From: Planctomycetota bacterium
GTDB taxonomy: Bacteria; Planctomycetota; PUPC01; JACPCR01
Assembly (NCBI GenBank): GCA_030740295.1
Contig: JASLXP010001011.1
Span: 1-8,104 of the forward strand
DNA length: 8,104 bases
Reading direction: 5' to 3'
Shown one piece after another: positions 3 to 7,320 of the stretch. The notes under the pieces are model-generated. The model saw only the letters and a program-made list of their open reading frames with translations. It did not search any database and was not told the DNA's origin. The translations under genes and the position numbers were made by a program. Within the stretch, counting starts at the first letter, position 1. Each line of letters opens with the position of its first letter.

Positions 3-305
3 CGGGACATCAAGCTTCGCTACATGGGCAAGTGCACTGCGCAGAGGGCGAGGGCGATGGACAACGGAGTGCACCTGGTCGTTGCCAATGCCGGCCGTTC
101 GGAATACGTGAATAACAGCCGCATCATCACTCCGAACTCTCAAGGTCCGGAGGAGGCGCTCGCCAAAGCGACCAGGGAAGAGCAGATGCTCGTTGCGGAT
201 ATCGAATTCAATCCGAGGTCGAACGGGGTCCGTTCGACGATCCAGCGCGAGCCGTGGCTGTTTAATGAATTGGCCGAAGAGATTCGGAAACTGACTGGTG
301 GTTAG
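3..305 (+). CDS. Carbon-nitrogen hydrolase (nitrilase superfamily), C-terminal fragment
   Basis: The last 100 codons of a gene that begins before the window; the frame is open from base 3 and ends in TAG at 303-305. The piece contains an 'RARAMDNGVHLVVANAG' stretch, matching the conserved block where nitrilase-superfamily enzymes have 'RA.EN...V..N'. It is followed by 'SRIITP', the usual strand carrying the 'G.S.I..P.G' motif, then 'LVADIEF', the late strand before the C-terminal tail. Family members hydrolyse C-N bonds of nitriles, amides or carbamoyl groups using a Glu-Lys-Cys triad. That triad lies upstream of the window, so activity and substrate cannot be judged. An ATG at 24 lies inside the conserved fold and is not a plausible start. 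The gene converges on the sulfatase gene across a 274-bp gap. Family confidence is good; the specific subfamily is unknown. Confidence 0.8.
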   Translation, partial: RDIKLRYMGKCTAQRARAMDNGVHLVVANAGRSEYVNNSRIITPNSQGPEEALAKATREEQMLVADIEFNPRSNGVRSTIQREPWLFNELAEEIRKLTGG

Positions 306-421: not shown

Positions 422-546
422 TAACTTCCCATTTTCGAAGATGGCCATGTGCCACGGTTTGCTTGCCAAACCGTGCAGATCACGTTGCTCGCACGGATTG
501 GCAAGCAATCCGTGGCACATGTTCAGTCAATCAAGATGGGAAGTTA
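422..546. repeat. MITE-like nested inverted repeat (125 bp)
   Basis: Outer arms 422-435 and 533-546 pair at 13 of 14 positions (taacttccca/tgggaagtta at the tips). After a short unpaired bulge, 446-476 pairs with 491-521 at 29 of 31 positions, leaving a 14-nt loop at 477-490. Each inner arm is itself a perfect 9-bp hairpin: 453-461 with 467-475 (loop cttgc), and 492-500 with 506-514 (loop gcaag). The outermost TA on each side (422-423, 545-546) could be a TA target duplication, as left by IS630/mariner-type elements. Since TA is self-complementary, this is weak evidence. There is no coding capacity. It sits between convergent stops and could also work as a bidirectional RNA 3'-end structure. 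Possible identities are a non-autonomous transposon, a REP-type palindrome, or a terminator. The structure is seen directly; the role is inferred. Confidence 0.8.
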
Positions 547-579
547 ATCTTGAGCGGACCCTTAGCCATGCCTGTAGAG

Positions 580-2928
580 CTATTGAGTTGCCGGTTTGTC
601 GGACAGGAAGATCTGGTCTGCCATAATGTGCCCCCAACCGCCGGAAGCCAGATCGACAATCTCCACCCTTGCTTCCCTGCCCTTGAGCTTGGAAAGGTCC
701 CAGGAAATCCAACGCATGATTTTGCGGTTCCCGCTGCTCTTCGTCGCCGTACCCACCGCGGTATGAACTGCCTTCCCATCGACGAGCAGGTTGACGCAGG
801 TTTGCCCTGCAGTTTTTCCGCCGCCGATCAGGAAATTGAGATACTTCTGCTCGACCCGAAAAGCCGGCGATGTCAGCTTCCCGGTGGGCTTGTCGCTTTC
901 GTTGATGAGAAACGTATCCACCAGGCGTTTTCCCTGGTGACCTGCAACGCGGTTTCTCGTCTCACTTGGACCGGAGCCGAATGCGGTTCCGCTCGCTTGC
1001 CAGTCGCCGTAAGAATTGCCCTCGAAATCGGCGAGCAGCACATCATCCGCCGTCAGTGTGATCGACGCGGCGGCTTTGGGCTTCTGGCTTCCTTTTCGCG
1101 CAGGGGCAGCAGGCCCGGCCTGTTTTGGCCTGCGATCGGAGGGAGGCGTCAGCGTCGCGTCGGCATCGGGAATTCGCTTGAGATAGACGTAGATCGCGCT
1201 GCAAAGGGCGTGCTCTTTCGCATCCATCAGAGTGGTAGCCAACTGTGTTTTGCCCACCGGCAGTTTAACGTGAAAGGTGACATGCTTGTCCGATGGCTTG
1301 GCGTCGAGCGTGTAGTTTTCGCCGGCTACTTGAAGATTGGCTGCAGTAATCGGGCGTGCACTTCGACCGCTGTCTCTTGGCCCCGCGATTCCTTCGGTAA
1401 GTGATTTTTTGGATTCCCGGGGCCAGCGAAGCAGCTGCAGTTCGTAGACACCTTCGCTACTCACGATCACATTCCAATAACCCCGCGCTGTCGCGCGGGT
1501 GAGCCCGCCGCGGTTGTCGCAATATCCGCCGGTCCAATCCTGAGCGTAGAGAGTCAGAGGATTGGCTTGCTGGGCGCCGATCGTGATCCACCGCGGTCGA
1601 TCAAACAGCGGCCTTGCTTCTTTGTGCCAGCTTTCGTAGTGGGCAGTCATCTGTTGCACGACTTCCGGATGCTGATCGGCGACGTTCTTTTTCTGTCCCG
1701 GATCACGACCGACATGATGGAGTTGTCCGCGATTGACCAGACGCCACTTGTCCCACATCACTACCGCGGGATTCCATGGCTCGCCGGAAACGCGGTACTG
1801 CACGACGAGCTTCCGATCCGGCAATTCCGATGCTGTGCCCTTCAGTAGACTGGCCAGGCTCGTCCCATCGAATTCTGCGCTGTCTCTTTCCAGGCCACAG
1901 AGTTCGATCAAGGTGGGCAGCAGGTCCTGCACTTGAGTCAGTTCATCAACGTCGCTGTCGTGCTTCAGTCCTCCCACGGGCCAGCGGACAAAGCAGGGAA
2001 CGCGATGGCCTCCCTCGAATACGCTGGTCTTTCTGTCCCGCATTCCTGCGTTGTAGATCGCCTGGGCCTGCCTGCTCTGGGTGCCGTTGTCCGTCATGAA
2101 GATCAGAATCGTGTTCTCGCGAAGTCCCTTTTCCCGAAGAAATGCCTCCAGCTTTCCGAGGTTCTCATCGAGATTGGCGATCATCCCGTAGAACGTGGCC
2201 GGGATCGGTTTGCCTCCGTGCCGTCCTTCGTAAGGCTTCGAGTATTTCTCTTCGCAGACATTGGGCACATGCGGCGTGTTGGTGGGGAGATAGAGAAAGA
2301 ACGGCTTGTCCCGGGCCTTCACTTTCTCGATCCACTTCATCGACTCTTGAAAGAATATGTCGGTGCAGTAGCCCTCGAACTTCTTGTCCGTTCCGCTATG
2401 AGAGAGAACCGGATTGAAGTAAGTGTTCCCCCAGTAATCCGCGAGCGAGGTTATGCCCCAGGCGCGGTGATGGATCGTCTCCTGGAAGCCGCGATCCTGC
2501 GGGCGATGCGGATAGCTGTCACCGAGATGCCACTTTCCGAAATGCCCTGTGGCGTAGCCTGAATCCTCAAAGAAGTTGGCCATGGTCGGAAGGTCCGTAC
2601 GCATCATCGAACGTCCCTGGCAGACGGCCGTGCAGCCATTCTTCATCGCGTCGCGGCCTGTCATGAGCTGACCACGAGTGGGCGAACACATCGGCGCGAC
2701 ATGGAAGTCCGTGAATCGAACGCTCTCTGAATGGAGGCGATCCATGTTCGGTGTCTTCAGGACGGGATTCCCATGAACTGAGAGGTCCCCGTAGCCCTGG
2801 TCGTCGGTGAGGATGAGGATGACGTTGGGTTTGTCCGCGGCCTCGAGAACCGGGCAGGCGATGAGCAAGCACGCGCAGGCAACTCTGCGGACCAGGTACT
2901 GTGAAAGGGAAGAGAAACTATTTTTCAT
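580..2928 (-). CDS. Exported sulfatase (arylsulfatase A-like, FGly type) with C-terminal beta-sandwich fusion
   Basis: A 782-residue sulfatase that removes sulfate esters outside the cytoplasm. The start is the ATG at 2928, giving MKNSF, a basic n-region with RR and a hydrophobic core. A TTG at 2979 would put 17 polar residues before the signal. Cleavage could follow the Leu-Glu-Ala near residue 30, or LIAC (Cys25) could act as a lipobox. The catalytic parts are complete: metal ligands in LTDDQGYGD (about 40-48), CSPTR (81-85, Cys81 being the residue converted to formylglycine), GKWHLG (131-136), TPH (218-220), TDNG (279-282) and Lys300. A planctomycete-style sulfatase C-terminal beta domain follows (about 450-585), then a Pro/Ala/Lys linker (about 594-620). 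The last domain, from about 628, has DFEGNSYGDW, LIGGGK, NLLVDGK and GGWGHIMADQI, and resembles the domain attached to many GH32 enzymes. The substrate cannot be predicted. Confidence 0.95.
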   Translation of the reverse strand: MKNSFSSLSQYLVRRVACACLLIACPVLEAADKPNVILILTDDQGYGDLSVHGNPVLKTPNMDRLHSESVRFTDFHVAPMCSPTRGQLMTGRDAMKNGCTAVCQGRSMMRTDLPTMANFFEDSGYATGHFGKWHLGDSYPHRPQDRGFQETIHHRAWGITSLADYWGNTYFNPVLSHSGTDKKFEGYCTDIFFQESMKWIEKVKARDKPFFLYLPTNTPHVPNVCEEKYSKPYEGRHGGKPIPATFYGMIANLDENLGKLEAFLREKGLRENTILIFMTDNGTQSRQAQAIYNAGMRDRKTSVFEGGHRVPCFVRWPVGGLKHDSDVDELTQVQDLLPTLIELCGLERDSAEFDGTSLASLLKGTASELPDRKLVVQYRVSGEPWNPAVVMWDKWRLVNRGQLHHVGRDPGQKKNVADQHPEVVQQMTAHYESWHKEARPLFDRPRWITIGAQQANPLTLYAQDWTGGYCDNRGGLTRATARGYWNVIVSSEGVYELQLLRWPRESKKSLTEGIAGPRDSGRSARPITAANLQVAGENYTLDAKPSDKHVTFHVKLPVGKTQLATTLMDAKEHALCSAIYVYLKRIPDADATLTPPSDRRPKQAGPAAPARKGSQKPKAAASITLTADDVLLADFEGNSYGDWQASGTAFGSGPSETRNRVAGHQGKRLVDTFLINESDKPTGKLTSPAFRVEQKYLNFLIGGGKTAGQTCVNLLVDGKAVHTAVGTATKSSGNRKIMRWISWDLSKLKGREARVEIVDLASGGWGHIMADQIFLSDKPATQ

Positions 2929-5667: not shown

Positions 5668-7110
5668 CTAACGTTCCTTCGACGACAATCTGATACGCGT
5701 GTAAGGGGACGAAGAGTAGGTCGCGTATTCTCTTTCTCGATAACGGACTCTCTTGCGATGGTTGCTGAAGATGTCGATGGTTGATGCGTCTGCCTTCAGC
5801 GTGATCTCAGCAGTCCAGGAGTTGCTTGCCTTGTCGTGCTTCATCTCTGCCCAGTTCTCGTCAGGAATCAGTTTGCTCAGGTAGCCTGGGCTGCCGTCCA
5901 TGGGCCGGTCGTACATCCACCAGATGCGTCCACTCTCATCACCTGAGCCGGGAGGGAAAGTGACGGTCACATGCAGCACTCCGTCTTTTACGTTGCTTTT
6001 GATGGTGGGCGATGGCAGCAGCGGTTCGATCTCCTTCGGGAAAAAGTGTCTCAACAGAAAGGCCGCTTTATTCTGCTGATCCCGTTCAATTTTCGAGTGA
6101 GGTTCTCTCTTGCCGTGTCCGGTGTTCGCGCCGAGGTAGATGGGAATGGTTGGATGACGTGCCCCGCCCCACGCCAGGTCGAAGGCGACGAAGTCATGAG
6201 TGCCCGGATGGAACAGCATGTCAACTTTGCGGGAGCGGAGAGCTTCCAGGTTTCGCGAAACAAACACGCCATCCGAGACGCGTTCGGCAAATGCCTGCAG
6301 TTCCTTCCAGGTGCGGCCGGCGGCAAGGGCATCACGATTGAAAATCGGGCCGAAGTGACCACCAAGAAAGCGGTGTCTCATCTCCCCGGCAAAGGCTTCG
6401 AGTTCATCCCACGCTTTGCGGTCGCACATCCGAAGGGGGGAATCCCAGATAGGAGAGACCGACGCGAACACGGCGGTCATACGTTCGTCATGAATGATCG
6501 CCATCGAGGGCGTCGCGCCATTCTTAGAACCACCTGACATTGCTACCTTGCCATGCTGGAAGTAATCCTCTTCTGCGTAGGCCGCCGTGACAGCGCGCAT
6601 CATCGTCGCCGGCCAGGCCCAATACTGAATTTTGTCGTGCGGATTGAGCGACTTGAGAAAGCGCGTTTCAGATTCGCGGCCGAGGGCGACAAGCCCGGAC
6701 TGCTGCAGTACCTGGACAACGGTGTAAACAAGTCCGACGCCTCCCCGAATCAGTTCTTGTTCGAGCGGAGGGGGTCTTATATCCCGCTCCAAACGCCGGG
6801 GATGATTTCCGCCCGTCAGGCGGAAGCCTTTGGCTTTGCGAACCACGGGCACGACCATCCGCACGGGCATCCGATACTCACGCCCGGGCCATATCTCGCC
6901 GACCTTAATCGTGACAAGTTTCTGCCGGGTCGGAACTGGCCCATTCACGCGATGCCAATCCTGAAGCACTTTGACCTCAAGTGTCGTTGCATCGCGGATC
7001 GAGGACATATCGAAAAGTGGTGTTCTCTCTTCCTCGGCAGTCGAAGATGGATTTCCCAGAAAGATCAAGCTACATGTGGTCAGACCGATAAGAGATGAAC
7101 GATTTTTCAT
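5668..7110 (-). CDS. Exported alpha/beta hydrolase, PhoPQ-activated (PqaA)-like
   Basis: 480 residues from the ATG at 7110, which begins MKNRSSLIGL and gives a normal signal peptide with likely cleavage after Ser-Thr-Ala (about residue 25). A TTG at 7137 would add nine residues before it. The nucleophile elbow is GGSKNG with Ser195, close to the GxSKRG of PhoPQ-activated pathogenicity-related proteins. Like that family, it is preceded by a Trp-containing segment (QYWAWPATMMRAV, about 162-174). The predicted acid is Asp306 in PGTHDFVAFD and the His is His332 in NTGHGK, spaced as in that family. Residues about 370-475 form a beta-rich C-terminal domain. The reaction is probably ester or peptide hydrolysis in the periplasm or outside the cell; the substrate is unknown. 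The gene is divergent from the outer-membrane protein gene and convergent with the glycoside hydrolase. The fold assignment is fairly secure, the subfamily less so. Confidence 0.75.
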   Translation of the reverse strand: MKNRSSLIGLTTCSLIFLGNPSSTAEEERTPLFDMSSIRDATTLEVKVLQDWHRVNGPVPTRQKLVTIKVGEIWPGREYRMPVRMVVPVVRKAKGFRLTGGNHPRRLERDIRPPPLEQELIRGGVGLVYTVVQVLQQSGLVALGRESETRFLKSLNPHDKIQYWAWPATMMRAVTAAYAEEDYFQHGKVAMSGGSKNGATPSMAIIHDERMTAVFASVSPIWDSPLRMCDRKAWDELEAFAGEMRHRFLGGHFGPIFNRDALAAGRTWKELQAFAERVSDGVFVSRNLEALRSRKVDMLFHPGTHDFVAFDLAWGGARHPTIPIYLGANTGHGKREPHSKIERDQQNKAAFLLRHFFPKEIEPLLPSPTIKSNVKDGVLHVTVTFPPGSGDESGRIWWMYDRPMDGSPGYLSKLIPDENWAEMKHDKASNSWTAEITLKADASTIDIFSNHRKRVRYREREYATYSSSPYTRIRLSSKER

Positions 7111-7320
7111 GATTAGCTCGTATTGGCTGGACAGCAATCGTAGCGACAGGCCACCAGGGCTGCTTGTCGTCTACGGCGTCAAGAGATGGACAGGACCCGC
7201 TCGACGACTTGCCACCAGATGAGAAAAAGGACTTTCCTCGAAGCTCTGTTTTCGCGATGATGCTGGCAACCCGCATTCGACGGGCCGAGCACCATTTATC
7301 TTTCAGAAGGAGAGGCAGAA
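7111..7320. other. Divergent intergenic region between hydrolase and outer-membrane protein genes
   Basis: This 210-bp spacer must carry start signals for both flanking genes. The only clear element is the Shine-Dalgarno sequence at 7307-7312. On the minus strand a TTGACG hexamer (complement of 7183-7188) resembles a -35, but no matching -10 is found at 16-18 bp. No convincing hairpin or operator was seen, and no small gene is supported. Confidence 0.45.
7307..7312 (+). promoter_or_regulatory. Strong Shine-Dalgarno sequence
   Basis: aaggag lies 8 nt before the ATG at 7321, the best ribosome binding site in the window. It fixes the start of the outer-membrane protein gene. The two minus-strand starts lack comparable sites, so this gene may be translated more efficiently. 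Confidence 0.75.

Follow-up and report, generated by a model that had tools for sequence, protein, structure and literature searches.

A nested palindrome between two converging reading frames of a planctomycete genome raises the question of what kind of element it is, and whether its two small hairpins or the long cruciform that contains them are what is preserved. The window, by which we mean the whole stretch of 8,104 nucleotides that was analysed (contig JASLXP010001011.1 of assembly GCA_030740295.1), holds the element in an intergenic space at 306–579. In the list of open reading frames, this space lies between the 3' part of one gene (3–305, plus strand; without a Pfam match) and a sulfatase gene (PF00884; 580–2979, minus strand), both of them outside the element. 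Other frames overlapping the space (for example 463–1404, plus strand) are antisense to the sulfatase gene and were taken as spurious. Arm comparison gave an inner inverted repeat of 31 bp (446–476 with 491–521) with exactly two mismatches, T458/T509 and A470/A497, at the positions named in the original prediction. These bases had also been described as partners within each small hairpin, T458-A470 on the left and A497-T509 on the right, and this was confirmed. Both 9-bp stems are perfect. A single stem pair, changed on both sides, distinguishes the units and leaves a T/T and an A/A mismatch in the long palindrome.

Each unit consists of the tetranucleotide GTGC, a 9-bp stem CACGG[T/A]TTG, the loop CTTGC, the complementary arm and a C. 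In the left unit (449–476, plus strand), the unpaired tag GTGC (449–452), common in relatives, stands 5' of the hairpin CACGGTTTG-CTTGC-CAAACCGTG (453–475), which was identified by folding and arm comparison, and a C follows directly 3' of the stem (476). A spacer of 14 bases (477–490) leads to the right unit (491–518, minus strand). Its perfectly paired hairpin (492–514) reads CACGGATTG-GCAAG-CAATCCGTG on the plus strand; on the minus strand, folding and pattern match give CACGGATTG-CTTGC-CAATCCGTG (514–492) and then a C at 491 (together 491–514). The right tag is GTGC on the minus strand, or GCAC on the plus strand (515–518), and the element is therefore an inverted doublet with both tags facing outward. 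With up to three mismatches allowed, the pattern GCCACGGNNNGCTTGCCNNNCCGTG matched the window only at the two hairpins (expected 0.01).

Folding predictions gave z = -11.4 for the 137-nt stretch 416–552 as RNA, and z = -3.8 and -4.4 for the single hairpins as DNA. On one folded DNA strand, the long hairpin is the energy minimum, at -47 kcal/mol versus -9.5 and -10.1 kcal/mol for the small ones. The earlier suggestion that the complementary loops could kiss did not hold up, since their complementarity follows trivially from two inverted copies of one loop and is no independent evidence for kissing. The window had no Rfam match at gathering score.

Evidence on dispersal was drawn from relatives, via genomes reached through the unit itself. 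A pattern with six free stem letters matched 86 stretches in the genome collection: 66 were planctomycete, a single MAG labelled Deltaproteobacteria contributed 15, an Armatimonadota MAG 2 and an alphaproteobacterial record 3. That last record (OY279575; L004, L013 and L081) fits this first pattern and was rejected; its genome (G007) holds five hairpin cores, none of them tagged, and we treated it as unrelated because its hairpins lack the tag. A wider tagged pattern was found in 18 of the 19 genomes reached through the stretches, with 1–218 copies each and no hit for the reversed-pattern control. The search of related planctomycete genomes that had been proposed for this element was also productive. 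In a Planctomycetota sample, the tagged pattern occurred in 35 of 392 genomes (527 copies in total, up to 124 per genome), and the reversed pattern gave 3 hits in 3 genomes. We note that copies within one genome are not independent, and that many of the genomes are fragmented MAGs whose contigs may stop at repeats.

Comparison of individual sites gave a less sharp picture. Units were common to genomes G314 and G403 at seven of the regions compared. Four aligned sites held a strict unit in only one of these two genomes, and none of the four provided a clean empty site, a boundary or a target duplication, as each filled/empty candidate was blurred by deletions, rearrangement or a degenerate partner unit. 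Another frame of the window (5668–7137), without a Pfam match and esterase-like by eye, has relatives in 6 of the 392 genomes when E<=1e-60 is required; identity is 56–61% for the best three. In six genomes of the family that holds its nearest relatives, there were no strict units and no orthologous site was recovered. Units were also seen within a gene. A glycosyltransferase-like frame (by eye; L131 1645–3027, genome G019) has a tandem pair of GTGC units at a distance of about 66 bp and in frame, encoding a repeated GATAGLPGSA peptide, and units inside genes are therefore tolerated. At another site (L073 1001–1075), five or so tandem GGGTGCCAATGTCT copies stand directly before a full unit and resemble abortive or slipped copies of the tag end.

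Stem changes across genomes were overwhelmingly compensated. We examined 286 distinct copies, the window included, at the four stem pairs that the search pattern left free. These pairs were Watson-Crick in 278, 281, 276 and 281 copies, where independent columns would give 144, 133, 138 and 156; summed, 1116 of 1144 cells were Watson-Crick versus about 571 expected. Close pairs of units (gap <100; n = 78) were mostly arranged with tags outward (68), with 5 and 4 in the two tandem orders and one with tags inward. Half of the tags-outward pairs (34 of 68) had partners with unlike stems, and both hairpins were perfect in 26 of these 34, among them the doublet in the window. These unlike-stem doublets, mostly with both hairpins intact, show that the constraint acts on the single hairpin and not on the cruciform. 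The original prediction had proposed preservation of the single hairpin from one compensated base pair, and family-wide covariation together with the intact unlike-stem pairs means that it holds for the family. Unlike-stem heterodimers were described in other REPs in the main text of Di Nocera et al. (PMC3733652), who suggested escape from cruciform-cutting enzymes.

Tagged hairpins also border genes for a REP-associated tyrosine transposase (RAYT). In genome G002, which has 133 units by pattern, a 171-aa RAYT gene at one locus (L214) is preceded by four forward units and followed by three inverted ones, with a fourth cut by the contig end. The protein was assigned by NF047646 (105 bits, cut-off 80) and PF01797 (28.8, cut-off 23), matched the TnpAREP structure PDB 4er8 at E 9e-7, and has relatives at E<=1e-5 in 40 of 49 genomes; all five further relatives that were tested pass NF047646. 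Around this gene (L214 2143–3213) the units recur at 71-bp intervals and their spacers are mostly conserved, which suggests growth of the array by tandem copying.

We then examined 70 RAYT loci, made up of 30 taken one per genome and 40 chosen by hand down the list of relatives of the L214 protein. A tagged inverted repeat of at least 15 bases spans the RAYT gene in 44 of the 70 loci, compared with 17 of 1371 mismatched flank pairs, in which upstream and downstream flanks came from different loci. The tag was GTGCCA in 30 of these loci, GGTGGC in 13 and read in reverse in one, and the remaining 26 loci lacked such a repeat at 15 bases. Stems beside different RAYTs differ widely, and each still forms a hairpin in the cases inspected. 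Under a strict test, a GTGCCAC hairpin with at most one mismatch was present in only 8 of the 30 one-per-genome loci. Among the RAYT loci of relatives, none had exactly the stem of the window element.

Two other sets of candidates were set aside. The 30 best PF01797 hits in the same genomes were considered as cognate RAYTs and rejected: they had no flanking GTGCCAC hairpin at up to two stem mismatches (one doubtful case, L098), and a tagged inverted repeat was found in none of the 30 even at the looser limit of at least 12 bases. They represent other groups of RAYTs, and several have flanks of the TAGCC type. Inverted repeats holding TAGCC flank the RAYTs of another clade at L089, L090, L094, L096, L098, L108 and L111, and two RAYT/REP systems coexist in the same genomes. 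A weak RAYT hit near a doublet in genome G009 (L148) lies about 1.3 kb away, and that doublet is not arranged around the gene.

Across the Planctomycetota sample, RAYT genes and units tended to occur together. At a threshold of E<=1e-15, relatives of the L214 protein were detected in 24 of the 35 genomes with units and in 26 of the 357 without (Fisher p 2e-16, uncorrected for kinship); the other 11 unit-positive genomes had none at that threshold. The 26 unit-negative genomes with a RAYT relative may carry units of other stems that our pattern misses.

Under the name REPIN, Bertels and Rainey reportedly described in 2011 a doublet of inverted REPs that forms a single long hairpin when folded and is apparently the unit that replicates. 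The window element and its relatives share the inverted-doublet form with these REPINs and differ in hosts, tag and stems. We consider it very probable that the element is a REPIN, an inverted REP doublet of a GTG[C/G]-tagged REP/RAYT system that is a variant of the GT[A/G]G kind; because both tags in the window are GTGC, it is a variant and not a strict member of the GT[A/G]G REP/REPIN class. Relatives bear out the earlier view of a REP-like mobile unit: in them, many units are dispersed, stems covary, inverted pairs keep their tags outward, and RAYT genes are bordered by hairpins that share the tag and often also the stem. The doublet was presumably mobile in the host of the window as well. 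Alternatively, it might serve the two converging genes as a bidirectional terminator or as a hairpin that stabilises their mRNA, functioning as RNA and never having moved. Its location between converging frames and its strong RNA fold would then be expected, and for REPs such locations and a possible action as RNA have been described (PMC3733652). This alternative is very unlikely, as no terminator-like site (an intrinsic terminator with GC-rich stem and T run) was found at 250–650, the tagged unit is dispersed in other genomes and beside RAYT genes, and a function of the stem alone would not keep an unpaired tag.

The outer arms of the palindrome bear on two further explanations. In the window, the left arm TAACTTCCCATTTT (422–435, plus strand) and the right arm AAGATGGGAAGTTA (533–546, minus strand) match at 13 of 14 positions by arm comparison, a score that none of 300 single-base shuffles of the two 86-nt flanks reached. 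They are concentric with the doublet (centre 484.0 versus 483.5 for the inner arms), have TA at both ends and have no second copy in the window. Concentric arms (within one base, score of at least 9) surround 9 of the 66 tags-outward doublets with enough flank, where mismatched flanks predict 0.02; these are four doublets in genome G001, four in G002 and the window, with arm sequences unrelated among the three genomes, so that the independent cases are three, which is few. Without the demand for a common centre, 15 of 66 doublets reach a score of 9 versus 2.0 expected. In a MITE reading, the arms would be terminal inverted repeats used by a DDE transposase with TA duplication, and the tagged hairpins would be passengers. 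The arms are real and concentric, TA stands at both of their ends in the window, and by eye four G001 copies (L008, L034, L055 and L059) form a composite repeat with shared arms of about 30 bp ending CTATAT/ATATAG around the GTGC doublet. We nevertheless regard this origin as improbable, given that 57 of the 66 doublets lack concentric arms of that score, that G001 also has units without arms, and that the inverted repeats around RAYT genes bear tagged hairpins. The doublet could also have arisen by inverted duplication of one unit with its 5' flank, through hairpin-primed copying, which would make the arms a duplicated flank and not an older element. Such an origin agrees with the concentric arms seen in three genomes, which share a centre with the doublet to within one base and are unrelated in sequence from genome to genome; it is unlikely, since decay from one duplication should be even, while in the window the arms are 13/14 alike and the 10–11 bases between each arm and the unit-adjacent CAT/ATG are unrelated on the two sides. 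Arms common to several G001 copies also argue against it. We read the arms as an older palindrome that the doublet entered at its centre, or as an outer part travelling with the doublet.

The G001 units without arms indicate that the REPIN doublet is able to move by itself, and in some cases it lies within a larger palindrome. In three other G001 copies (L006, L018 and L048), and less clearly in L075, the right half of the composite repeat is replaced by another shared sequence. If confirmed, concentric outer palindromes would hint at the landing places of doublets.

The spread of the REPIN in the window is most likely accounted for by the action of a RAYT, a Y1 HUH single-strand transposase, in the host. 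This protein would have recognised the tag and hairpin on single-stranded DNA, probably on the lagging-strand template, cut next to the hairpin under guidance by the tag, and transferred the doublet, by copying or by moving it, to the intergenic spot of the window. The steps are modelled on a proteobacterial RAYT (PMC8266576, main text), for which the proposed model has the protein bind tag and hairpin on single-stranded DNA and the tag pair with the cut site. Since such a protein would read each hairpin alone, a stem change that keeps pairing would be tolerated, even though the long cruciform gains two mismatches. In the guide model of that work, a CT cut is set by A3 and G4 of the tag, with CC for a GTGG tag and GA or GT for a GTAC tag. 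By the same rule, a GTGC tag would be predicted to direct cutting at GC or GA, as opposed to CT or CA for GTAG.

Comparison with known systems supports both likeness and difference. According to the main text of Di Nocera et al. 2013 (PMC3733652), GTAG-tagged REPs are likewise short hairpins with an unpaired terminal tetranucleotide, and likewise form inverted dimers with outside tags, include unlike-stem dimers with compensated bases and flank RAYT genes; Planctomycetes and R. baltica are named there among REP carriers. The tag differs, being GTGC in the window and GTGC or GTGG in relatives, where that main text describes GTAG as degenerate at its second and third positions, GTGG being one such form, and not at the fourth. 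Class 2 TnpAREP proteins, as presented in PMC6006769, are similar in being Y1 HUH proteins with HxH and Y...NP motifs and a REPtron layout; they differ in the region that contacts the guide in E. coli, which reads FW[QL]xGxG[YF]DRN in most proteins of the L214 RAYT clade. Marinomonas TnpAREP (PMC8266576) likewise has perfect-palindrome REPs and a tag that guides the cut, with GTAG as the natural tag. Two assignments were rejected. Class 3 TnpAREP is reported to occur mainly in Planctomycetes and is defined in the main text of PMC6006769 by a CnGA foot and a Y....Q motif; here the foot is GTGC and the L214 RAYT reads YMHANP, which argues against a class 3 TnpAY1-associated repeat. A CGTC-tagged REP, a kind without flanking RAYT in the main text of PMC3733652, is at odds with the GTGC tag of the window and with the RAYTs of relatives, which are flanked by units.

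REPs in Planctomycetes, the pairing of RAYT and REP and the GTGG tag are already in print (PMC3733652, PMC6006769). By term search, the GTGC tag is absent from the main texts of PMC3733652 (searched anywhere in a word) and of PMC6006769 and PMC8266576 (searched at word starts). No other report on planctomycete REPs was found among titles and abstract openings, and several planctomycete papers hold the string 'rayt' once or twice. As far as the literature searched goes, GTGC-tagged REPs appear to be new.

Differences in the tag among relatives were counted without presupposing it, by searching 49 genomes for the hairpin core alone. GTGC precedes 914 and GTGG 582 of the 1640 core hairpins (together 91%), the GTGC share being biased upward and the GTGG share not, because these genomes were chosen mostly for GTGC units. 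Neither tag was present at 144 core hairpins, including 14 of 17 in genome G106, and the reversed core gave two hits in all. Only GTGC occurred in 27 genomes, and both tags in 19. The C directly 3' of the stem, present at 476 in the window, is the commonest base there in GTGC units (176 of 260) and occurs in 10 of 38 GTGG units, which fits the predicted GC cut, although the comparison is confounded by kinship. Inspection of the FW..G.GYDRN region by eye showed no one residue that distinguishes RAYTs with GTGC from those with GTGG.

We also put forward a broader interpretation, tentatively and with some doubt. Planctomycetota and some other lineages may carry a large REP/RAYT superfamily with GTGC or GTGG as guide tag. 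The fourth tag base and the stem would change with the RAYT lineage, so that cutting would shift from CT to GC/GA or CC/CA. Some REPINs lie at the centres of larger palindromes, which might reflect insertion at hairpin tips, and the window would be one of these cases. REPs are common short bacterial repeats, and the biochemistry in PMC8266576 concerns RAYTs with GTAG-tagged REPs of Proteobacteria. A tag that differs at the fourth base, and related RAYTs of one genome with different tags and stems, amount to a natural experiment in how a guide determines the cutting position.

Within genomes, the stem beside the RAYT usually matched that of the dispersed units. Seven genomes had a pattern-type GTGC unit beside a RAYT as well as listed dispersed units, and in six of them the stem beside the RAYT was the commonest among the first ten units listed (7 of 10 in G019, 9 of 10 in G140, 9 of 10 in G197, 10 of 10 in G201, 9 of 10 in G236 and 6 of 10 in G314). 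A few of the listed copies are the RAYT flanks themselves, such as two in G140, and in G236 (L264) the units beside the RAYT gene are not arranged head-out around it. The exception was G002, where the first RAYT (L214) has its own stem. A second RAYT of that genome (L251) bears GTGG-CACGGCCGG, a common dispersed type in G002, and GTGG-CACGGCGGG hairpins were also seen around this gene.

A tree of 92 proteins related tags to RAYT lineages; 5 of the 70 RAYT loci and 3 of the 30 controls had no usable frame and were dropped. Tag labels were assigned by eye to 34 GTGC and 16 GTGG loci of the 70 (31 and 16 with a protein in the tree), where a mechanical rule at 12 or more bases gave 32, 13 and 1, and TAGC labels to 7 of the 30 controls (6 in the tree). 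Nineteen control proteins, including all six labelled TAGC, split off with support 0.999. All 47 proteins labelled GTGC or GTGG fell in one group of 67 (support 0.969), together with 18 unlabelled proteins and 2 controls, and several deeper splits inside this group are weak. Four GTGC RAYTs (L232, L238, L241 and L255; support 0.311) and four GTGG RAYTs (L229, L280, L281 and L282; support 0.995) form a group of eight with support 0.998, and genomes G314, G399 and G403 each have one GTGC and one GTGG RAYT from this group. The contrast is exact in G314, where one of the two related RAYTs is accompanied by GTGC with CACTGTCGG and the other by GTGG with CACTGTTGG; in G399 and G403, the units on the GTGC side have one extra base near the foot of the stem.
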